Positions 37,593 to 55,576 of a stretch of DNA of 64,000 nt are shown here, piece by piece. Position numbers and translations under genes: made by a program. Within the stretch, counting starts at the first letter, position 1; the number at the start of each line of letters is the position of its first letter. Source of the DNA: Hypholoma sublateritium FD-334 SS-4 (Eukaryota; Basidiomycota; Agaricomycetes; Agaricales; Strophariaceae); contig KN817598.1 in the NCBI GenBank assembly GCA_000827495.1, forward strand, positions 1 through 64,000, read 5' to 3'. The notes under the pieces are model-generated. The model was not told the origin of the DNA. It ran no database searches and saw only the letters and a list, made by a program, of their open reading frames with translations.

Positions 37593-38254
37593 CTAACCTC
37601 TCCTGTGTTCCTTCTGATTCCTTTCCACAGCACTATAAACCGCGTCCCAATCCCAGCACTGGTACTGGTACAGTATAACATCCGGCTTGGGCTGTCCGGC
37701 TACCGTTTGCAAGTCGAGGTCACCACGGCATAATACCATCTCGCGAAGGTAATTGACGCAGTGTTGTGTAGAAGATGTGACTGCATTGAACTCTGGCTCC
37801 CGGGGCTTTCGACGCTCGACCTCAACTATACTCTTGCGGATAAGGTCGAGGCATTGAAGTTGGTGGTAGATGGACACAGTATACTCTTGTGGATCTTTGT
37901 TCTCTTGAGAACGTAGATGGACAGTACCAATTCCAGGGGTGAGTCTACCCCACTCTTCGTCATCTCCCAATATCTGATAGTGTGCAGAATTCTCCAAATG
38001 CATGCGTACGGGGTGGAGAGGTGCAACAGGAAAGGTCCTCGGACTATCAGTGTCTATAGCAGCACGTGTTAGCCAGCACTACAAAAACCGAAAAGTATAA
38101 GTTTGTTACCATCTGAGATGAGTCCTTTATGTTGATATGTCTGCAGTATACTGTTAATCCATGTCATGTTGAAGGATTTAACAACAAGGATGACAAATAA
38201 TAAAGCGCAAAGGAGAGCAGACGGTTGTCCAGTCAAAGCCCTTTGGTGCCTCAT
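37593..38254 (-). CDS. UstYa/DUF3328-family protein 1
   Basis: Two exons (38254..38110 and 38053..37593) make 201 residues. A membrane segment, ALLCALLFVILVVKSF, lies near the N-terminus, giving a type II topology as in UstYa oxidases. The family has two HxxHC motifs thought to bind metal. Here the first is HQLQC (YHQLQCLDLIR; Gln for the second His) and the second is TQHC followed by VNYLREMVLC, lacking the leading His. Downstream comes the conserved W-rich segment CWDWDAV. In ascomycete dikaritin clusters UstYa proteins oxidise or cyclise ribosomal peptides. The altered motifs mean this copy may be catalytically different or a partner subunit. It belongs with the related genes to its right. 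Confidence 0.85.
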
Positions 38255-39103: not shown

Positions 39104-39768
39104 TTAATTTGTGTCTGACGTATCATTCATCCACATTCGCATGTCGTTTTCAAGAAAATCATGGGGCTTCCTCCAATCCTGACACACATGTACTGATCCC
39201 GCAGTGGTGGAGATGAAATGGTTGTCCTGGAAATATCCTGACTCAAGAGTCAGATCTGGTCGACACATGATGAGTTGGCGCAAGTAATTCAGGCAGTGAC
39301 GGAGATGCGGCCAGTCTTCTCTTTTATTATCGACGAGTGCCGCGGAGAGTATCTGCACGCAGTGCATCTCGTGATACATTGCAACAAATACTGCACGATT
39401 TTCTTCACTGGAACCGAGCGCATGGAGTCGGTAGACACCAGCACCCCGAGGAAATATAGCCATCCATTCGTTACTGGCCTCGGGTGTTGTGGCATTGTAT
39501 CGTGCTGATATATCGCTGGTTCGCATGAGGACACGACCCGTAAGGACCGGTAGAGCCTCGGGCTCTTCTTCTAATGAGACAGGATCATTTAGCAGGCGTT
39601 CTGTTGGTACGAAAGTAATAACATAGGATACTTACTGTGTAGCCCAACATGGTACACATCTGCAATGTCTTGGGTAGGTTGATGGACAAGCTTCTGTACA
39701 CTGATAGAATGTAACACGGAGACGACGCAAAGTAAACAGAGAATCACAGTAAATACTGTTTTCGACAT
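39104..39768 (-). CDS. UstYa/DUF3328-family protein 2
   Basis: Two exons (39768..39636 and 39570..39104) make 199 residues. The N-terminal helix VFTVILCLLCVVSVLHSI anchors it. Both family motifs are complete: HEMHC (AMYHEMHCVQIL) and HLRHC (PHLRHCLNYLRQLIMC), followed by RPDLTLE and the CQDW segment. Of the three copies in this window it has the most canonical motif pair, so it is the best candidate for an active enzyme. Expected location is the ER or Golgi membrane with the domain in the lumen, where it could meet a secreted precursor. Same strand as copy 1. Confidence 0.88.
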
Positions 39769-40630: not shown

Positions 40631-41617
40631 TTAGATTGTCTGATACTGTCTCATGTAGATTCCTGTAATTTGGTGAGAAATATGGAAGTTTCTCAGAACG
40701 ATGCAATCCAACATACCATTAAGCTCTTTCTGACCGGAGGCAAGGATGTGCATGTTGCATGGGCCTTGCCCACAAGAGACTTCAATATGTTGGTACGTTC
40801 CTGACGGGCACATGTAAGGTTCGGTGCTCTGGGTGGATGGACCCAGTGCAGAAAATACGCCAAGGCGCTTCGCTCGTGGTGGTTTTGAGTTCCAAGTCAA
40901 ACGTCTGGTGTCGATGGTCTGGTCCCACTCAAGTGCCCATACGTCGAAAAATGCGTTCTTAACATCGGTAAAAAGCTTCCGGGCTTGTGGTGGTATAGTA
41001 AGGACGACACTGCAGTTCTCCATTCCGTAATCAGTCGCAAAAAATTCTGCAACGGTCGATATCTGCTGGGTAATTAGTGAAAAGACGCAAATGTTAATTT
41101 CTGTACGTACTTCTTGCGTTATAACAGTGCGTCGTTCATTGTATGGAATCATTCCGAATGCCGGAAGTTTTAACTGATCGGGGTACGGTTGCTGAGTTTC
41201 CCCCGGAGCAGACGAATCAACTTGAGTCAAACTGTAGGGAGGTTGAGTGGTTGGGCCTCGTGGGGTTGCTTTGAGCTTTCCGGCCCTGTATAAATCGTCT
41301 AAATTGGAGTAGGAACTGAGGAACGGCAGATTATCGAGTGGAATGGGCCCCAAAGGCCGAGTCACGGTGACTTGGCTACCGAGGTACGCAAGACTCAAAG
41401 CGTCAAGCATGGTACATAGGCCTATAAAAATTGACAACCACAGTATCAGATTGAAATGCTGTGTTTGAGTCTTTGTGTCTTGATTAATTACTCGAGTTTG
41501 AGCTCGTACACAAATTTATTGCATTCGAAAGAGGTGAATACCTTCTAGTTTTTCTTCAGGTCTGAACTCTTCGAAATGATCAGCCTCACTTTGCGGCAAC
41601 GACATATAGCTGGCCAT
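40631..41617 (-). CDS. One-pass membrane protein with But2-like C-terminal domain
   Basis: Three exons (41617..41542, 41478..41111, 41065..40631) give 292 residues. The start MASYMSLPQSEADHF leads to a cytosolic acidic stretch and one membrane helix, FNLILWLSIFIGLCTMLDAL. The lumenal part has FATDYGMENCSVVLTIPP, VWALEWDQ, LTWNSKPPRAKRLG, MCPSGTYQHIEVSCG and ends GIYMRQYQTI. This pattern matches a common basidiomycete group related to the C-terminal domain of the ubiquitin-3-binding protein But2; the assignment is from pattern memory. Its single N-terminal anchor is the same topology as the UstYa proteins around it, so it could share their compartment. Biochemical role unknown. Confidence 0.65.
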
Positions 41618-42557: not shown

Positions 42558-43774
42558 ATGGTAGGCCTCACTGTACCTGAATCCATCTTCATTTCCGATT
42601 TACTTGGAGGAATTTTCTATGGTAATGTTCTTTCACTTCAAATCTACTAAGACATTACATAAAGCTGACGGCCTCAATCTTAGGATTATACTGCGTCTTA
42701 TTCATACAGTACCTATCGCTCGTACGACGTAATAAGACCGTTGGGACTGCGGTCTTCTATCCCATAGTCGCGTTATTTTTAGGAGGCACAGCATTTGTGG
42801 GCATCGGTTTCGCCCAAGGGTTCCTCTCTCTTGTGAGCATGAGCATGCTTATTGCGCGTAAAACATCCCATTGACAGTACAAACCAGCTCCGCGCTACTG
42901 ATCCAGGAACTGCGATCACCTTATTCCGCCTCAGGCTTTCCACAAGTACAATATACTCATTCCTGGATTTAATATCTCAGGGTGTCCTTGTATGTTTTAC
43001 AGTACTCAGATGTATACACCCATTCACGCCATTACAGATATATCGTTGCTGGATTGTGTGGGGTAAAAACACTGCCCTCATTATTGTTCCCTCGCTTTTG
43101 GCTACTGCGTCATTTAGTGAGTATATCTTACTCACCAAAGGTGCATGATACAAAATCTGATGTTTATAAAAGTCACAGATATCGTCCTTGTTGCCGAGCT
43201 GGGACTCTTTGGTCCAGCCTCCCGGGCTGCCCCTGACTGGTTTACGAAGCTGGGGACTGCATCCTTCTCCATCTCACTTGCAACAAACGCAATCGTCACA
43301 GCAGTTCTTGTCGCAAAATTGATCATGGTTCACCGTGAGCTCACCGGAGACGGCTACGCGCACGGACACTATATTTCTGTGGTCATCGCCATGTTGATTG
43401 AGTCCGGAGCCCTGACCTTTGTCGCGCAGCTAATTTGGGTCGTACTATTCAGCCTTCAAAATGTGAGCTCGGGCTTCAATGCGGTTGGTAACGAGACGGC
43501 CCTTGCATGCGTACGTCTGGAATTTTTGTCACAAATTACCCCATCCTAAAGTTGAACTCAGGGGATTGCACCTACTGCTGTCATTGTCCGTGTAGCCATG
43601 GGAAGGTCGTACGAGACTAAGATGACTGGACACTCGCAGTTTGAAAGCGGAATGCGCTTTGCGGAGCGGAACGCTTCTACTACGGCGGCTGGTGAGGGCA
43701 CGCTGCAGTCGAAGTACGCAAGTGCTACTCGAATTGGTGTGAGCACAGACAAATTGGAAAAGGGTTCTCTCTGA
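42558..43774 (+). CDS. Polytopic membrane protein, DUF6534-like
   Basis: Begins MVGLTVPESIFISDLLGGIF. Spliced exons then give several hydrophobic helices, among them LFIQYLSLVRRNK, AVFYPIVALFLGGTAFVG, the hallmark IYRCWIVWGKNTALIIVPSL, ASFSISLATNAIVTAVLVAK, ISVVIAMLIESGALTFVAQL and LACGIAPTAVIVRV. The YRCWIVWG motif and the N-linked topology are typical of the very large, uncharacterised seven-helix family of Agaricomycetes often named DUF6533/DUF6534. The C-terminus is a soluble Ser/Thr tail ending DKLEKGSL. At least six exons; middle exon limits (about 42.85-43.05 kb) are uncertain. Whether it is a receptor or a transporter cannot be told. Confidence 0.7.
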
Positions 43775-44464: not shown

Positions 44465-47067
44465 ATGTCTTTGTACACCCAACTTGAAGAGATTCCTGTC
44501 CCCGTATCGGCCCAATTTATCTCACCCAAAGGTGTGCTATGCAACTACCGGCAGGAATCGCCTCCCTAACGATCATACGTAGATGCAGAACTCACAGTTG
44601 TTCAAGTGACATCCTTAGGAAAGGACCATGTCACAAATGCCAAACGCACAATGTCAAAATCGATTGCCTTCAACCAACTGAAAACGACAGCCGGCGATCT
44701 GTCCGGCCCGGGCGCGCCAATATCGTCGAGGCTGCAAGACGTCGACTTTGTCGCGCAAACCACGTCGCTCTCCGGCAACAAAGTTGCGACCCTCAGGAAC
44801 GTCAAGGGCACAGGTGGCGATGTAAAGCGAGTGGTCGAAGTCTGGAACCTTGGGCTGTTAGAAATATCGCTCAATGTGACGGACCACCATGGCGATTTCT
44901 ATCCGGATGGTGAGCATTGAGGAACTTCGTAATTTCTGATCACAATGAATAAGTATAAAAACTCAGAGATAATTGGATCACTGGCGTTTGCTCCTTCGGA
45001 GTTCTCGATCTTGTACATCGCGGAAGGAAATGCACCGGAGTCTGAGGACCCGTACCAGAAGTTTCGATTCAGCCCAGACTTCGGCGAAGGCTTTGTCGGC
45101 AAGCGACGCCCAGCGATATTCGTGCTTCGCTGGGAAGCCCATACGCCCGACTCCTCGTCAGACATACACGCAAACCTCGCGCAACTGGAAACACCGGACA
45201 GCATACGTTTCGGGCAAGCGATCTTCTCGGCTACATCCGACGAAATCATCTACGCGACAGGCTATGAGCTCACGCAGGACGGCCGCATGCTCGGGGTCAA
45301 GGGTCCCCTCAACCACCCTGTAGGGATATGGCAGCTGCGTGCACCCGCGCTGGCCGACGTCGCGTACAAGGTCGAGAAGAAGCCCACTACCGTTACGCTC
45401 AGCTTCGCGTGGAAGTTGACTCCCGCCCACCGCTCGTGCCGCTCGCCGCGCATCTTGCGCACTGAAGGCGCCGCGCCCACGCTGCTCTTTCTGTCATCAG
45501 CAACTGACGGCCCCCATGCTAGTGGATCTGCGCTCGAAGCGCTGGACCTCGCAGACGAGAGCAATGCAGATGCCGCGCCCGCCTCGCAGGCAAGGACACT
45601 GATCGGCACGGTCGAGGTGCCGGCCGAGAACGGCTTCCCCGGGTTGTATCCCGCGAACAGCCTGACAAAGACTTTTGAAATCCGCGCGCAAGGCGGAAAA
45701 TCTCCCAGCATACTCATCGGTTCCCAGTGGGGGTCACGGACCAGTGTACTCTGTGTCTCGCTGGACAGCGGGTCAGTTCAGGATCTCACTGGGGGCCAAA
45801 ACGGCCTGTACAGCTGGTCGCTTCTGGCGACCGACGGTCACCGGCGTGCTATTTGCACGCGAAGCTCGCCGTCTGTGCCCCCCGAAATTGTCCTCGGGAC
45901 GTTTGACAATGCAGGCAACGTATCGTGGACCATCATCGACAAGCCTGCACTTCCGGAAGGGCGTACGTGTTGCGAAGACTGACTTATTTTGTTTGTAGTT
46001 GCTGACGAACGCTTTTCTTTTGCGTCAGTCGCCAAGGTGTTATCAGCAATTCGAACTTCAATAATCCAAATTCCTGGTCGTCCCTTTTTAGAGACAATAG
46101 TAGTCCAGAAAGAAGATACGCAGACCTCAAATGCGAAACCCCCTTGCATTACTTACCCGCACGGCGGCCCTCATGGTACAGCCTCTATAGCGTTCTCAGC
46201 GCCCACGGCAGCCCTTGCACTTGAAGGATGTGAGTGGCCCATTGTCCGTTAAAACTGGATAATCAAGCAGATTTGTGCTAGATACCATTTCATTCCCGAA
46301 CTATAGCGGCTCGCTGGGATATGGCGAAAAGTTCCTCTTAGCACTGCTGGGAAGATGTGGCGAGCTTGATGTGCAGGATTGCATCGCATCCGCGCGCCAT
46401 CTCATTGAGCTTGGAATATCGGAGGCCGGGCCTCGGAAGCAACTCATCATGGGGGGAAGTCATGGAGGTTTCCTCACCGCACACCGTACGTTGTATTCCG
46501 CTGTGCGCAAAAGCCCGTGTTCACGTGTAAAACTAACGACATCCTTGTACATGTAAAGTCATCGGCCAGTTCCCTGACTTCTTCACCGCCGCCGTGCTGA
46601 TCAACCCCGTAATTTCCGCTGCTGAAATCGGTGGCTCGGACATTCCCGACTGGTATTTCGTTGAGTTCAACCTAGGTTATCCCCTCGCGTCCTCCCCGCC
46701 TGGAAAATACCCTCCTGCAACGTCCACACCCGGGTTGCCCATCAACCTGCCCCCACGCGTCGACCCCGCTGCGTTTTCCGCGCTTGACGCAGCGATGCCT
46801 CTCGCTCGCGTCGCCTCGATGACCGTACCCGTGCTTATCCTCTCTAGCACTGCGGACCGCCGCCTCGCGCCAACGAACTCACTTGCCCTGTACCACGGGC
46901 TGTGCGCACACTATGCCCGGCCGGAGTTGAGGGCCCGCGGCGCACGTGTCGAAATGTTAACGCTCGAGGGAGAGGGCCACATGATGGACGGCGTCGAGGC
47001 AGCGCGTATATGGTTTGAGTCAGCGCGTGATTGGTTTGCTGAAGCGTGCAAGACGGAGGCGGCGTAA
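44465..47067 (+). CDS. Acylaminoacyl-peptidase (S9C prolyl oligopeptidase family)
   Basis: Removes N-acylated residues from short peptides. An N-terminal beta-propeller (from MSLYTQLEEIPVP to about DKPALPEG) precedes an alpha/beta-hydrolase domain. That domain has the oxyanion segment YPHGGPHG, SFPNYSGSLGYGE, the nucleophile elbow MGGSHGGF (Ser), the Asp in LSSTADRR and the His in GEGHMMDG. Several introns; at the SFPNY junction the TAG acceptor just before ATACC restores YTISFPNY. No signal peptide, so cytosolic. The last exon encodes 46.6-47.07 kb. Probably a housekeeping enzyme, but it sits inside the UstYa-rich region. S9-family peptidases trim peptides in some fungal RiPP pathways, so a role cannot be excluded. 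Confidence 0.88.
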
Positions 47068-47757: not shown

Positions 47758-48899
47758 CTACGGTGGTATAATCAGATCAACTTCGCCCTCTAACCGCACT
47801 ATATGGCTGGCTCGTATGCTATCTGGAATCCCGTTGGCATCTTGCCAGGCGAGTAGTTTGTCATAATTCATGCATTGATGTTCGGTATTGAAGTCTGGAT
47901 ATGGAGTGCTGAATCCTCTGAGGTATTGTATGGAGATATGAAAGTCGGACCAAGAACAAGCGTCGAATACCTTACCTTACCCAATCAAAGGTGATCATTG
48001 TAGTATCGGGATTGCACATCAAAACCTGCCGAAGTATCTCAATGCAATGCTCTAAGAAATCATATTTTCCTTAACAACAAAGAGATGCGAAGAGCTTGCC
48101 TGCCACGTACCAAGATGGGCACGGTATGTCTCTTCCTTTGCTTCTGTAAAAAAGGGATCGAATGTGCTGTAATGGTCGAAGTATAAATATTTTCGAAGCA
48201 CATTCTACACGGAAGGATGTTAGTTATTATCTGCAGTGTTTTGAGTCCCAAGGATGCATACAAGACAATGAAGCTGATGAGTGACCGCCAAAGCACCCAT
48301 ATATCCACCTCCGTCTGCCTCCGAGTACTTGACTATCGAAGGTGTGTCCTCCTTGCCTATCTTGATTAATTCCTCTCGAGTAAGGCGCGACATGGTGGCT
48401 ATTAAATGTTTAGTTGTAACGAAGATTGAGATAAATTTCCCCTAAGATACGCGCACCGCCTGATGATATGTTGAACCACGCCTCGTCGAGCTCCGGTGTA
48501 GGCTGCCCGCGATAGATAGAGGGAGCTCTAAACGAGCCCTTGAAGATAGTATGTTCTTTTTCAAACTCAAGGCCTGCATTTGAGGGAGCTAAGATCCCAA
48601 TTAGTCTACTTGGAGGATCTCTGAGGATTCAGGGAATACCTACAATATGGGAGAGTTGTAATTGATGCTTGCCTCCGCGCTCGACTCCACAGAAAGAGGA
48701 AAACAAAGCAGAATAACAGCAAAATCCCATGAGTCAAGTAAGCCCAATAAGAATTTAAAACCAATTTAGTCGCAGACAATTTCTCAGAGCCCGAGCGATA
48801 GCTGTTTGAGCTGGTATTGTGACTGAGTAACTTCTCTGTATCGTCCAATTCTTCGCTGCGTCGTGTTACGGCACTGTATTCTGAGGATCGCGAAAACAT
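47758..48899 (-). CDS. UstYa/DUF3328-family protein 3
   Basis: At least six short exons rebuild a classical UstYa-type protein. A cytosolic Ser-rich start (MFSRSSEYSAVTRR) leads to one helix, WAYLTHGILLLFCFVFLFLW. After it come APSNAGLEFEKEHTIFKGSF, YRGQPTPELDEAWF, LTREEL, GGGYMGALAVTHQLHCLNVL with the first motif HQLHC, then LGKYDFLEHCIEILRQVLMC, and TPYPDFNTEHQCMNYDKLLA. The first HxxHC motif is complete; the second reads FLEHC. Stop at 47758. It is divergently oriented to the kexin-type repeat precursor that starts 1.33 kb away, a layout that could share regulation. In ascomycetes this family cyclises the core peptides of such precursors. Confidence 0.88.
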
Positions 48900-50229
48900 T
48901 TTTGAGAGTGAGGTTGAATGCAAAACGGCCTTCCGCTGAACCTGGCATTATATTATCTACTATCAATTTCAGTCGTGAACTCCTAATAGAAGGTAGTATA
49001 GAGAGCCAGATTGCAGATGTTTTCCAACAATACTGTGCCGTCAGATCATGATACAGATTCAGAGAAGCAGAATTTGATGTACGATGAATCGGTAAAATTG
49101 GAAACGGCGCTCGTCTGCCATCTCGGAGATGAATATTGGTTTCATATGTGCTTTCCCTCTCCTCTCACAGTCATATTTTTACACTGCTACAACGCGAGTT
49201 TTCACTAACAATAGACCGTGTTCGTTTGTTTTGTTTTCATTACGTATATCTACAATCTTCTTCAGTAACGATCATTTACACCTTTCAAGTCCCAGAATAT
49301 TTTCGAATGCGAGCGACAGTTAGGGTCAAGATAAATGGTACTGGGTGGGATCGATTTTATTTGAATACTTACAACACTGTCCACCTTTCGGAAATAATAT
49401 AGCCCTACTCCGTCTCGCTGTGATCACCCGATGATGGACTGAAAACAGAGGCGACTTTTGCACTATTTTACTAGTCTTGGCGCTACTATAACAGGCTGCG
49501 ACTTCTTTCGGAACACTTATTCACGAAAATGACACGAGTCCACTAACCCCTACGAACAACCATTGTGCCACTTCTGTTCTGGGAGCCGAATTTGCCTTTT
49601 GATTGGCTCGTTATCGCATTCAAATTTGTTGTGAAAACGGACTGCTGACCGCTGACCGGGACCGCTCATTTTCTATATAAAGTTGATCATGATTTCCATG
49701 AGAATATACTACACCGTCATAACGGTGCGAGTTGGCGGGGGCAGATTCCTGTGGGCTCCGAGTCGAGCATATTCTTCTACTTCCCACCGACACCAGTTAA
49801 TTCAAATCTTCTCACCGACAATTTTTTTCAAGATTGATATCAGCGTTTCTCAGAGCCAATGGAACTGTTTTGAATATACAATTTTTTTCTCACAATTCAT
49901 GTTTCCACTCCACCGACCACATCTTTCACAAGAAGCATACAATTTGTAAATAATGCGTCAGTGAAAAATACATCAAATCAAAGCTATACGTATCTGGAAT
50001 GGAAGGCATAGAATCCACAAGATGCCAACAGACTACTGATATTTTTTGAGCGTCATATATTGTTACGACGATAAGCCAATTGCATGTAGCATCCAAATAA
50101 TAACATTGCTATAATTATAAGTTCGCCCTTGAACTTTTCCAGGGATAAATAAGAAGATCGTCTACTCAAGCGGTAACCCAAACGATACGCACCCAGAAAA
50201 CAGTTGTCTTTCATCAAGCCAGTAGAAAC
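48900..50229. other. Divergent spacer; small possible gene fragment at 49017
   Basis: A 64-codon plus-strand frame from 49017 starts MFSNNTVPSDHDTDSEKQNL. It has the polar start typical of UstYa-type cytosolic tails but ends without a membrane helix or motif, so it may be a relic exon or chance. The rest is AT-rich with no other candidate. The spacer should contain the promoters of the third UstYa gene and of the repeat precursor. Confidence 0.35.
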
Positions 50230-50999
50230 ATGCAACTTATTCGCGTATTTTCGGTTTGCGCAATTATTCCATTCATTACCACTGGACTGGCGACTCCTCT
50301 CAATGCCCAAGGTACGCGCTGCGATCTCAATGCCCAGAGCTCTGGTGTTGACAGATTTCATAGATCTTGCTAAGCGCCGCATGTTCAATTACGAGCCCGA
50401 TCTTGGTATGTCGCTGGCGTTCTTTTGCCATCCGCCCGCATTTATGCTCATGGCGCTGAAGTAGTCGACGACTTGCCGGTCGCCAAACGAGGTAAGCGCC
50501 CAGGTTCCGTGGCGTATTTCCCCATTAATACCTGCCCAAAACAGACCAGTTCGAGAAAGGCGCTGTCGCGATGTTCAAACGCAGCGAAAAGGAGTCTGTT
50601 GACAAAGCCCTTGCGATGTTCTTAAGGCGCAGTGAAGTGGAGTCCGACGACAAATCTCTTGCGATGTTCAAGCGCGACGAAAAATCATCTGTCGACAAAG
50701 CCCTTGCGATGTTCTTGAAACGCAGCGAGCCGGAATCCAACGATAAATCTTCCGTCGATAAAGCCCTTGCGATGTTCTTGAAACGTGGCGAACCGGAATC
50801 TGTCGACAAAGCCCTTGCGATGTTCTTGAAACGCAGCGAAGCGAAATCCAGTGGTGAATCGTCCGTTGATAAAGCTCTTGCAATGTTCTTGAAACGCACC
50901 GAACTCGAGTCCGACGACAAATCTCTTGCGATGTTTAAACGCGGCGAATTGGAGTCGCAAGACTCCGACCTTGTAGTAATCAAACGTGGAGCAGAATAA
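50230..50999 (+). CDS. Kexin-processed repeat precursor (candidate RiPP precursor)
   Basis: Four exons (50230..50311, 50355..50405, 50465..50491, 50545..50999), all phase-1 introns of 43-59 nt, encode 204 residues. A signal peptide, MQLIRVFSVCAIIPFITTGL, is cut near ATP. After a leader with KR sites, the last exon carries a series of units each ending KR (once RR). Eight units contain AMF: five end SVDKALAMFL, two end DDKSLAMF and one reads EKGAVAMF; acidic spacers such as SEPESNDK or TELESDDK vary freely. The final unit is DSDLVVIKR. Conserved cores, variable acidic spacers and Kex2 sites are exactly the layout of dikaritin precursors such as UstA. The neighbouring UstYa-type genes support this. 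No Tyr occurs in the cores, unlike known dikaritins. Product not known. Confidence 0.88.
50545..50996 (+). repeat. In-frame tandem repeats coding for AMF core peptides
   Basis: The DNA word GCGATGTTC (once GCAATGTTC) recurs at about 50571, 50615, 50660, 50707, 50770, 50817, 50880 and 50929, followed by an optional Leu codon (TTG or TTA), AA(A/G) or AGG and CGC/CGT. Unit length varies from 45 to 63 bases because the spacers vary, always in multiples of three. Confidence 0.85.
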
Positions 51000-51582: not shown

Positions 51583-54500
51583 ATGGCCTTCGTTTTGCTC
51601 TCAGCTTTACTCGCGTCGTCCATTACAGTTTGGGCATCTTCTTCTGAATCGCAAGCGCTCGTGCAGCGCTCGGAAGGCCAGTATGCTTCGGCCAACACCC
51701 GTTTTGCGCATCCTGCAGCGCAGGAACCAATACCGGACATATCGAAGGACTATGATCTGCTGGACACGGTTCTAGTGGCATCTATCGACGGGAAATTCCA
51801 TGCGCTCAACAGGACGAGCGGCCAGACGTTGTGGTCCATGTCGTCGTTCGCAACCACGACAAGCGTTTCCGCGCCATCATCGCTTGCACCGCTCGTACGA
51901 ACAGCACACGTACAGCACGATCCAGAGGTCGACGATGAAGACACGGAGACGTACATTATCGAGCCGCAGTCGGGCGACATATATGTGCTTCAATCACCGT
52001 CTGCGCCGCTTCAGCGCTTCCCTTTCTCGATGTCCCAGCTCGTTGATATCTCACCATTCACTTCTATCGGCGAGCTCGACACCACGGTCTTCGTGGGACG
52101 CAAGGAGACCTCACTGCTTGTTATCGAATTAGAGACAGGCCGCATCAAGGCGACGCTCAACGCCGAATGTCCGTTTGTGCCGGAGGAGTACGAAGATCTC
52201 CCTGCCGAATTGGACGACTTTGAGGGAATGAAGCCGCCTGTATCAGCACCGACTGAAGTGTACATCGGTCGCACTGGTGTGTTATTGCGTTTTTAATTTG
52301 CCACTTATTCTCACATCTTGCAGACTACCATATATCAATCCTCAAGAAACCGAAATCAGGGAAGCCTGCGCCGCCCGCACAAGAGCTAGCGTTCTCGACG
52401 TACGGGCCGAATAACAAGGACAACCACTTGCAGAATATCTACCGTCGCACTGCAGACAATACCTATATCCAAGCACTGCCCGGCGGCGACGTGATCGCCT
52501 TTTGCACAAAAAACAGCTCTGCGGCTGCCGGGGAAAAAGACGCGAAGGCAAGAGCGGCATGGGGGCGTCCATTTCCCAATACAATGTGAGTACTGCGCAG
52601 TTCGACTCTGATCAACCTAACCCACACCTCACTCCGCAGTGTCGCCATATTTGATGTTCTCAAGGCATCATCAACCTCCTTTCCACTCGCCAGCGCCCAC
52701 CCATTCGTCTTACTTCAACCACAGCCAACGCTCGCCGACCTCTTCCCACCGAATGAATACTCCGGGTCGTCCACACCCCCGTCCGCCGGCTCAGCGTACA
52801 TCGGGCTTGTCGAAGAGACAGACAGCCTCTTCGCGCTGAGTCCCGCGCATTTCCCGCTCGTCGTCTTCGGCAGCAAAGAGCGTCAGGCTCTGCCACCAGG
52901 CGTGCGCCAGGGACATACCATCGGCTCCTCGCACGACGCAGACGACGCGGACGACGAGTTCCAGTATTGCCTGCGCAACCGGTACACGCCACGCTGCCTT
53001 GTCGGCGTGCACAAGCTTTCGGACGGCGAGGCGGACCCGCAGGTCGGTCGCTGGAACCGCCTGCTTGACGCTCCGAAACCGCAGGCACCGGCACTGCAGC
53101 AGCCGATGGACAACAGTGTTGTGGGTGCGGCCCCCGAGGACCGCCGCCCGCACGGCGTACTTGTGGGTGCACCTTGGGACACGGACGAGGGTGACAATGC
53201 AAGCGGCACTGGGCTAGGGCAGGATGCGGGCGACGTGAAGACAGGGCCTGTTCCGGTATACGACGCCCCGTGGCGGAACGGCCTACCGGCGATCGGTGAC
53301 GGGCGCGGGAGCAGGGTGGGCGCGCTGCAGGGCGGCTGGGAGGTTATCAGCGTGTGGGTTGTGGTGGCGCTTGTGGGCGCCTGGGTCGTGCTTGGGCGCG
53401 TGCGTGCATGGCTCGGCGCGGGTGCTCGGAGGCGTGAGAGGGAGCAAAGGCAGAGCAGCGCTAGTGAGGGCGAAGCGGAGGGGAGGACGGTCGCCGGCAC
53501 CGAGGAGAAGGAGAAGGTCACAGTACACTTCGCGAATGGCGACGTCGCGCGCGGTCAGCCCGACGGCAGTGCGTCTGTTGATGTTGATGGAGGTTTACTG
53601 TCGTCGGTTGTGGAGGGTGTCCCGGCTGCGGCAGCAGCGGACATGCTTGAGCTCGCCAGACCATCAACGCCGAAGGCGCGACCGGCGGCGCTGAACCTCG
53701 TTGCAAGTGAAGGAGCAGCAAATACGGAAGTCCTCCAGAGCGCTTCGCTTGCCACGCCGAAGGCCGTCGTCAACGGGACTGTAGGGTCAGAGTCGGGATC
53801 GAATGGAGCTGCAGACCCCGAAGACGGTGATGAGAGCGACGCCGATGCTGACGCAGGGACAGCTGCCACTCCGGGTAAACGCAAGAATAGGAGAGGGAAA
53901 AGAGGAAAGAAGAAGAAAGGAGTCACCATCGCCAGTGGGGATTCAGCCGACAAGGACAAGGAGACTGAGCCGGAAATCGAGAAAGAACAAGAGGAGAAAC
54001 CATCGTCCATTGTGCTAACCACATCGTCGCCCAAGCCCACCATGCAGCCTTCGCTAATTGTGTCTGACACTGTTCTCGGTGCGTTGCTCTATTCGGGCAT
54101 GATATTAAATCTAATGGACGTGTTTTGCAGGATACGGCTCGCATGGAACTGTCGTGTTCCAAGGATCGCTCCAGGGCCGCGCTGTCGCTGTGAAGCGCCT
54201 TCTCCAAGACTTCGTCACACTCGCCGCGCGCGAAGTCTCCATCCTGCAGGAGTCCGACGATCACCCTAACGTGATCCGATACTACTATCAGGAGTCTCAC
54301 GCAAACTTCCTCTACATCGCCCTGGAGCTGTGCCCCGCGTGCCTCGCCGACATCGTCGAGGCACCCGACCGCGAGGCCTACCGTGACATCGCGATCAACT
54401 TCGACCCCAAGCGTGCGCTGAAGCAGATCGCCAGCGGCCTGCGGCACCTGCACGCGCTGAAGCTCGTGCACCGCGACATCAAGCCGCAGAACATCCTCGT

Positions 54501-55576
54501 AGGCATCTCTCCCGGCGCAAGCGCTGCGGGCGGCAGCAAGGGCGGCAAAGCGTACCGCATGCTCATCTCGGACTTTGGACTGTGTAAGAAGCTCGACGTC
54601 GACCAGACGAGCTTTGCGCCGACCGCGCACGGCGCAGCGGGGGCGGGCACCGTCGGCTGGCGGGCGCCCGAGATCCTGCGCGGCGAGGTCAAGCTGGACG
54701 AGCTGGCCAGCGGAGACGACACCATGTCTTCACGGGGATCGGTCGCGACGGTCAGCGGCTCTTCGTCTGCTAATGGGCTTGCGTCTGGGAAGCCCACGCG
54801 CTTGACGAAGAGTGTCGACATATTCGCGCTTGGATGCCTATTTTACTACACCTTGACAAGCGGTGGACATCCATATGGCGACAAGTTCGAGCGCGAGGTG
54901 AATATTATACGGGATGCCAAAGATCTAAATTCGCTGCAAAGGTTCGGTGAGGAGGGTACAGAGGCGACGGACTTGATTAGTGAGATGTTGAGCCCAGAGG
55001 CACGAGATAGGTAGGCTTCAATGCCAAGAACTTCACACTCCACCGCATTCTAACTCGGCTTGTTTTCAGGCCGGACACAACAACGATTCTTTTACATCCC
55101 TTCTTTTGGGATGCAGGGCGCCGCCTGAACTTCCTTCAGGATGCGTCGGACCGCTTTGAAATCATGTGTCGAGATCCGAAGGAGTCCAATCTGCTCGCTC
55201 TGGAGGAAGGAGCACAATCGGTGGTTGGAAATGACTGGCACACGCGGCTGGACAAAATCTTTATTGACAACTTGGGGAAATACCGAAAGTACGATGGCAA
55301 AAGTGTGCAAGATCTGATGCGTGCCCTGAGGAATAAGGTACGTAAATTGCTTTCTTCTCATGATCTGGCGCTGATTGTCCATTTATCAAGAAACACCACT
55401 ACCAAGACCTTCCAGATAATGTAAAACGGCATTTAGGTCCAATGCCTGAAGGGTTCCTGGGCTATTTCACCCGAAGATATCCTCGACTCTTCCTCCATGT
55501 TCATGGAGTGGTCAAAGACACTGGCCTGCATTCTGAGTCTATGTTCCGCGCATATTTCGAGTTGCCCGACAATTAA
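51583..55576 (+). CDS. IRE1: ER stress sensor kinase/endoribonuclease Ire1
   Basis: Type I ER membrane protein that senses unfolded proteins and splices the HAC1/XBP1-type mRNA. Exons 51583..52276, 52324..52585, 52640..54078, 54131..55010, 55070..55337 and 55391..55576 join in phase. A signal peptide (MAFVLLSALLASSITVWA) precedes the lumenal beta-rich sensor (DTVLVASIDGKFHALN, GDIYVLQ). The membrane helix is VISVWVVVALVGAWVVLG, then a basic and acidic linker (KRKNRRGKRGKKKKG). The kinase has GYGSHGT, VAVKR, the catalytic HRDIKPQN, SDFGLCKKL and GWRAPEIL, with an insert after EILRGEV typical of fungal Ire1. The RNase domain has NFLQDASDRFE, LRNKKHHYQDLP and GYFTRRYPRLFLHVH. Intact. Confidence 0.95.

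Follow-up and report, generated by a model that had tools for sequence, protein, structure and literature searches.

A dibasic-repeat precursor beside a UstYa-family gene is probably one of three paralogous dikaritin-like modules sharing an FNYEPDL tag

Does a divergent gene pair in a 64,000-nucleotide stretch of DNA (the window) encode a RiPP system of the dikaritin kind, and which of its features would set it apart from known ones? The original prediction for this locus paired a repeat precursor with a UstYa-family gene and saw novelty in a basidiomycete host and in cores lacking Tyr. The genes can be laid out as follows; the splice sites of both are models chosen by open frame, consensus ends and family match.

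50230–50999, plus strand: precursor gene, ATG at 50230, stop codon ending at 50999, four exons
50230..50311, plus strand: precursor exon 1, signal-peptide-like MQLIRVFSVCAIIPFITTGLATPLNAQ
50355..50405, plus strand: precursor exon 2, DFIDLAKRRMFNYEPDL, carrying FNYEPDL at 50384–50404
50462..50491, plus strand: precursor exon 3, VVDDLPVAKR; an alternative acceptor would start the exon at 50465
50545..50999, plus strand: precursor exon 4, with the eight AMF units, the DLVVI-KR unit and the stop codon
48900..50229, no strand: intergenic stretch, 1,330 bp between the divergent start codons
48899–47758, minus strand: UstYa gene, ATG at 48899, six exons; 286 amino acids in the model used, one among many possible open splice combinations
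48644..48899, minus strand: UstYa exon 1, N-terminus and the membrane-anchor-like stretch GILLLFCFVFLFLW
48451..48588, minus strand: UstYa exon 2, whose 3' border could shift by a few bases
48262..48398, minus strand: UstYa exon 3, HQLHC at 48279–48265
48111..48204, minus strand: UstYa exon 4, in which HLEHC starts at 48117
47976..48051, minus strand: UstYa exon 5, remainder of HLEHC, to 48044
47758..47917, minus strand: UstYa exon 6, stop codon at 47760–47758

KR and RR sites downstream of a signal peptide are kexin substrates. The modelled precursor, 205 amino acids long with GT–AG introns, begins with a hydrophobic segment whose layout, judged by eye only, is typical of a signal peptide, and each of its eight AMF units is followed by a dibasic site (KR in seven, RR in one). 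Five of these units read VDKALAMFL-KR/RR, two DDKSLAMF-KR and one KGAVAMF-KR; a ninth, DLVVI-KR, is without AMF. A degenerate DNA pattern for AMFxKR matched four times in the window, always within the precursor, whereas 100 shuffles averaged 0.00 matches. The repeat precursor with eight KR- or RR-closed AMF units that had been proposed is thus confirmed, its signal peptide remaining putative. The proposal that the cores lack Tyr stood only for the repeats: no unit contains Tyr, but the precursor itself does, in the previously overlooked FNYEPDL, where its only Tyr sits within RRMFNYEPDL (50375–50404) on exon 2, outside the AMF repeats. A genome search for AMF-repeat paralogues matched the precursor gene itself and nothing else. 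Computed [M+H]+ values for the predicted linear peptides are 1567.8036 for SEKESVDKALAMFL, 1506.7508 for GEPESVDKALAMFL, 1457.6464 for SEVESDDKSLAMF, 1485.6777 for TELESDDKSLAMF and 1553.7879 for DEKSSVDKALAMFL; minus-2H forms would lie 2.0157 lower, and Met oxidation 15.9949 higher.

The neighbouring protein matched the Pfam UstYa model with 203.1 bits (cut-off 25) over profile positions 9–220 of 220 and carries a hydrophobic anchor and two HXXHC motifs, HQLHC and HLEHC, the latter split by an intron, bearing out the predicted UstYa-family assignment with its membrane anchor, HQLHC and LEHC. Two such motifs are said to mark RiPP-related DUF3328 proteins (PMC12048977). Against the PDB, the protein gave a single chance match (E 0.45). 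The spacing of about 1.3 kb claimed for the divergent pair was likewise correct, at 1,330 bp from start to start; this stretch is possibly a shared promoter region, in which case the two genes may be regulated together. Chance does not explain the precursor/UstYa pair.

With the dikaritins ustiloxin, phomopsin and asperipin-2a, the pair has in common KR- or RR-closed repeats, a putative signal peptide, a core surrounded by acidic residues and dibasic sites, and a UstYa (DUF3328) gene nearby, the dikaritin trait of a KEP gene adjoining a UstYa gene being present here in divergent orientation; a single UstYa gene is a further likeness to asperipin-2a. Unlike the dikaritins, it has repeat units without the Tyr of ustiloxin-type cores, a conserved tag that occurs once and lies outside the repeats, and a host that is most likely a basidiomycete, and whereas ustiloxin and phomopsin have a tyrosinase, no match to one was found among the 20 window ORFs scanned. 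Neither of the novelty claims survives comparison with the literature. In the Umemura survey, DUF3328 genes lay near 1758 of 7878 KEPs, and basidiomycetes contributed 103 of their 1680 KEPs to this class, the same one as the window pair (Umemura 2020, PMC7329392). Tyr was present in 65.6% of the repeats of the 1758 UstYa-linked KEPs, so about a third are without it (PMC7329392), and victorin is cyclised via a C-terminal Phe (PMC9233826), a precedent for Phe ahead of the cut site as in the window precursor, although victorin is an ascomycete, chlorinated product likened here by description and not by sequence. Host phylum and Tyr absence are thus both without novelty. The precursor/UstYa module is real, and its main interest lies in a common tag and a three-copy design, less in its host or in the absence of Tyr.

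The three copies are joined by FNYEPDL. The pattern FNYEP[DE] had three matches in the 46 Mb genome (reversed pattern, 0), and each lies within a precursor with dibasic repeats that has a UstYa gene in its vicinity. A 20-base form of FNYEPDL searched with up to two mismatches gave three exact matches, none with one mismatch and 16 with two, compared with 12 for the control; candidate loci beyond the three exact ones were rejected as background. One of the two additional precursors, at C69, was found while scanning UstYa surroundings for dibasic repeats, and the motif was defined from it and the window, making the third, at C132, a prediction. The two are located as follows.

L024, 8796–9262: C69 precursor, units ending in VEF-KR/RR
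L035, 1351–2026: C132 precursor, reading MQVILALIALVPFFTVTISIPLNEHGLSGRRFNYEPDL and then five repeat units

In all three precursors exon 1 ends in the same phase and exon 2 carries FNYEPDL; the exon that follows the signal-peptide-like exon at C69 has LAKRRIFNYEPDL, for which the window counterpart is LAKRRMFNYEPDL. Distances from precursor to nearest UstYa match are 0.8, 1.6 and 8.3 kb: the C132 genes are 673 bp apart (0.8 kb to the UstYa match), and the C69 pair is looser, with the precursor about 8 kb from the UstYa gene. The tag is identical in protein sequence at all three loci and differs by 5 nucleotides per pair, all silent, with about 3.5 synonymous sites among its 21 positions. The repeats, by contrast, differ fully (ALAMFL, DLVEF, RGAFG), so that the feature kept among the copies is the Tyr-bearing tag and not AMF. 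Phe occupies position -1 or -2 relative to the dibasic site in 18 of the 20 dibasic-closed segments after FNYEPDL, a count that reflects at most a few independent events because repeats within a precursor are copies; both exceptions, VVDDLPVA-KR and DLVVI-KR, are in the window precursor. At C132 the units follow x[IV][EQ]DRGAFGRRxxx (n=5) with one exon each, the first four exons being 42 nt and the last 41 nt including the stop codon, so repeat number could change through exon gain or loss. Two of the six introns of this precursor begin with GC instead of GT (GC–AG). Searching Pfam with the three precursors yielded sub-threshold matches only for that of the window and none for the other two.

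Such conservation raises the question of whether FNYEPDL is itself the main product, a Tyr-bearing peptide freed by a kexin cut behind the preceding RR and crosslinked by UstYa in the way known from dikaritins, with the repeats as spacers or by-products. It is the longest stretch common to the three precursors, and RR stands directly before it at C132 and one residue earlier in the window and at C69. This account is nonetheless unlikely: the tag occurs once per precursor, whereas the repeat units number 9, 5 and 5; its distance to the next dibasic site varies (8, 21 and 9 residues); and a conserved product would run against the usual RiPP arrangement of a conserved leader and variable cores, which the single-copy kept tag and divergent cores fit.

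The UstYa genes tell a related story. A family search gave 39 exon matches in the genome, grouped manually into 31 genes. Of the other 30 genes, those at C69 and C132 matched the window UstYa best (49–73% identity by exon); assembled proteins were 56% identical over 252 amino acids for C69, taken up to its first in-frame stop, and 49% over 286 for C132. Next by score came the C15 UstYa, at 39.5% over 81 amino acids. Five introns lie at matching places in the window, C69 and C132 genes, one C132 donor being poor and uncertain. The C69 frame (L023/L024) ends about a dozen residues earlier than those of the window and C132 genes, its stop lying beyond the Pfam domain. A 26-row tree of the shared domain placed the three UstYa proteins and C15 on one branch supported at 100/100, the long, partial C15 row nesting inside the three with 93/91; without it (25 rows), window, C69 and C132 grouped at 100/99. 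Both trees leave out 5 of the 31 genes. No repeat precursor was seen near the C15 UstYa (C15:222801–224400, L018/L019).

How often do repeat precursors accompany UstYa genes at all? A detector for alike residues before dibasic sites, prefiltered against segments rich in few residue types (R, K, P and G among them), was applied to 292 kb comprising the window, 23 loci of 7–10 kb around UstYa genes and L035, which together include 26 of the 31 UstYa genes. At the level of at least three alike units it returned three clusters, one per FNYEPDL locus, and 0 in 1.46 Mb of shuffled sequence. With two alike units it returned six further pairs (in L011, L014, L017 and L024), shuffles giving 1; these pairs were put aside on inspection. 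Detector matches in L024, L025 and L027 that came from Arg-rich or Pro-rich frames were discarded by eye.

These counts bear on whether the precursor could be an ordinary KEP yielding linear signalling or defence peptides, with UstYa an uninvolved neighbour. Coprinopsis cinerea, with its agaricomycete Kex2-processed repeats and three kex2 genes, offers a likeness, since in the present genome C5 and C8 hold kexin P-domain matches that were grouped manually into three genes; the characterised C. cinerea peptides are linear or minimally modified, linear KEP peptides being the known outcome in Agaricomycetes (Vogt 2022, PMC9769878), and the main text of that report contains neither the word UstYa nor DUF3328. 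Moreover, 23 of the 26 scanned UstYa genes have no repeat precursor of their own assigned, so that a UstYa gene alone is no sign of one, and other UstYa genes here pair with a But2-like protein (described below). Against a mere neighbour, each of the three FNYEPDL precursors has a UstYa gene in its vicinity, and these genes belong to a single subfamily. Only 0.84% of the genome lies no more than 10 kb from a UstYa match, and the nominal probability that three of three precursors fall within 8.5 kb of one is 4e-7. As the motif was defined from two of these loci, that figure is too favourable; the independent evidence consists of the C132 locus and of how the UstYa paralogues rank. On this balance, we regard an uninvolved UstYa as improbable.

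We therefore favour, with a probability of roughly 0.6, the interpretation that the window pair is one of three paralogous two-gene dikaritin-like RiPP modules in this genome. Against it count the separation of about 8 kb at C69 and the position of C15 inside the three UstYa proteins in the first tree. The dikaritin-like pairing originally predicted is well supported, recurring at two more loci with the closest UstYa paralogues; AMF, on which that prediction centred, is not a conserved feature. We consider it likely that UstYa acts on the window precursor, and about as likely as not that FNYEPDL serves as a leader-type recognition element. That Phe is the residue modified is a tentative suggestion, somewhat easier to doubt than to accept. 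The fullest form of the proposal, in which UstYa would be guided by a leader-like FNYEPDL outside the repeats and would work on Phe-bearing cores of unrelated sequence, the repeats being freely exchangeable, even where each has a micro-exon to itself, and tag and enzyme being retained, is possible but doubtful. The precursor would enter the secretory pathway and, in the Golgi, meet the membrane-anchored UstYa, FNYEPDL perhaps aiding its recruitment or positioning; kexin would cut behind KR or RR, a carboxypeptidase would remove the basic residues, and UstYa would oxidise the Phe-bearing cores by loss of 2H or by ring closure. Such oxidation would resemble the use of the C-terminal Phe in victorin and not the Tyr ethers of ustiloxin, and product sequence would have diverged among the copies with tag and enzyme retained. 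UstYa-family oxidation is known to bring about cyclisation in ustiloxin, asperipin and phomopsin, and desaturation in phomopsin (PMC10512285, PMC6514808, PMC7329392). In UstA, each core lies between conserved ED and KR motifs, which are thought to be recognition features (PMC6514808); since acidic residues likewise precede the cores in the window units, a signal in each repeat is also conceivable. It is very improbable that FNYEPDL is instead a propeptide sorting or folding signal, with UstYa still modifying the cores, because such a signal, although compatible with a place shortly behind the signal-peptide-like segment, would be expected in precursors away from UstYa too, and all three exact matches in this genome are near UstYa.

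Three paralogous pairs in one genome, with one tag and three unrelated repeat sets, make up a natural experiment on leader-directed substrate recognition by UstYa enzymes. If the proposal is right, modified peptides could usefully be made with one enzyme and a swappable repeat cassette, and FNYEPDL could be used to look for further modules of this kind in other fungi. A limited literature search found no report of the tag.

The surroundings of the pair hold further genes, among them two UstYa genes missed in the original prediction.

46537–47064, plus strand: part of an S9 peptidase gene (PF00326, prolyl-oligopeptidase family), adjoining the UstYa gene of the pair
54115–55421: IRE1-type kinase/RNase gene (PF00069 and PF06479), on the other flank of the pair
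37596–38078 and 39107–39631, minus strand: two further UstYa genes
40634–41515, minus strand: But2-like gene, with a membrane-anchor-like stretch seen by eye

S9 enzymes work in other fungal RiPP pathways (PMC9769878), and this peptidase was considered as a macrocyclase; no relative was found in 20 kb of the C69 locus or 3 kb of C132, and we therefore treat it as a bystander. The UstYa/UstYa/But2-like trio lies 6–10 kb left of the pair and has copies at C135 (L032) and C136 (L031) with 64–71% identity. Genome-wide, 14 matches to the But2-like protein were grouped manually into 11 genes, 10 of them within 5 kb of a UstYa match, surroundings that make up 0.5% of the genome; the eleventh, at C35, is 41 kb from a UstYa match. 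The Pfam But2 model matched weakly (25.1 bits, cut-off 24.2) and detects two of the 11. Perhaps the But2-like protein is a substrate or helper of UstYa; taken together, this association and the FNYEPDL precursors suggest that in this fungus UstYa genes regularly go with partners of at least two kinds. DUF6533 has 39 matches in the genome, which, along with gene style and the three kexin-type genes, a number also seen in agaricomycetes, makes an agaricomycete host plausible. An ORF at 43121–43546 (plus strand), to which Pfam gave no match, resembles at 41% over 92 amino acids an ORF at C56 (L016, 4836–5222) that also lies near UstYa genes.
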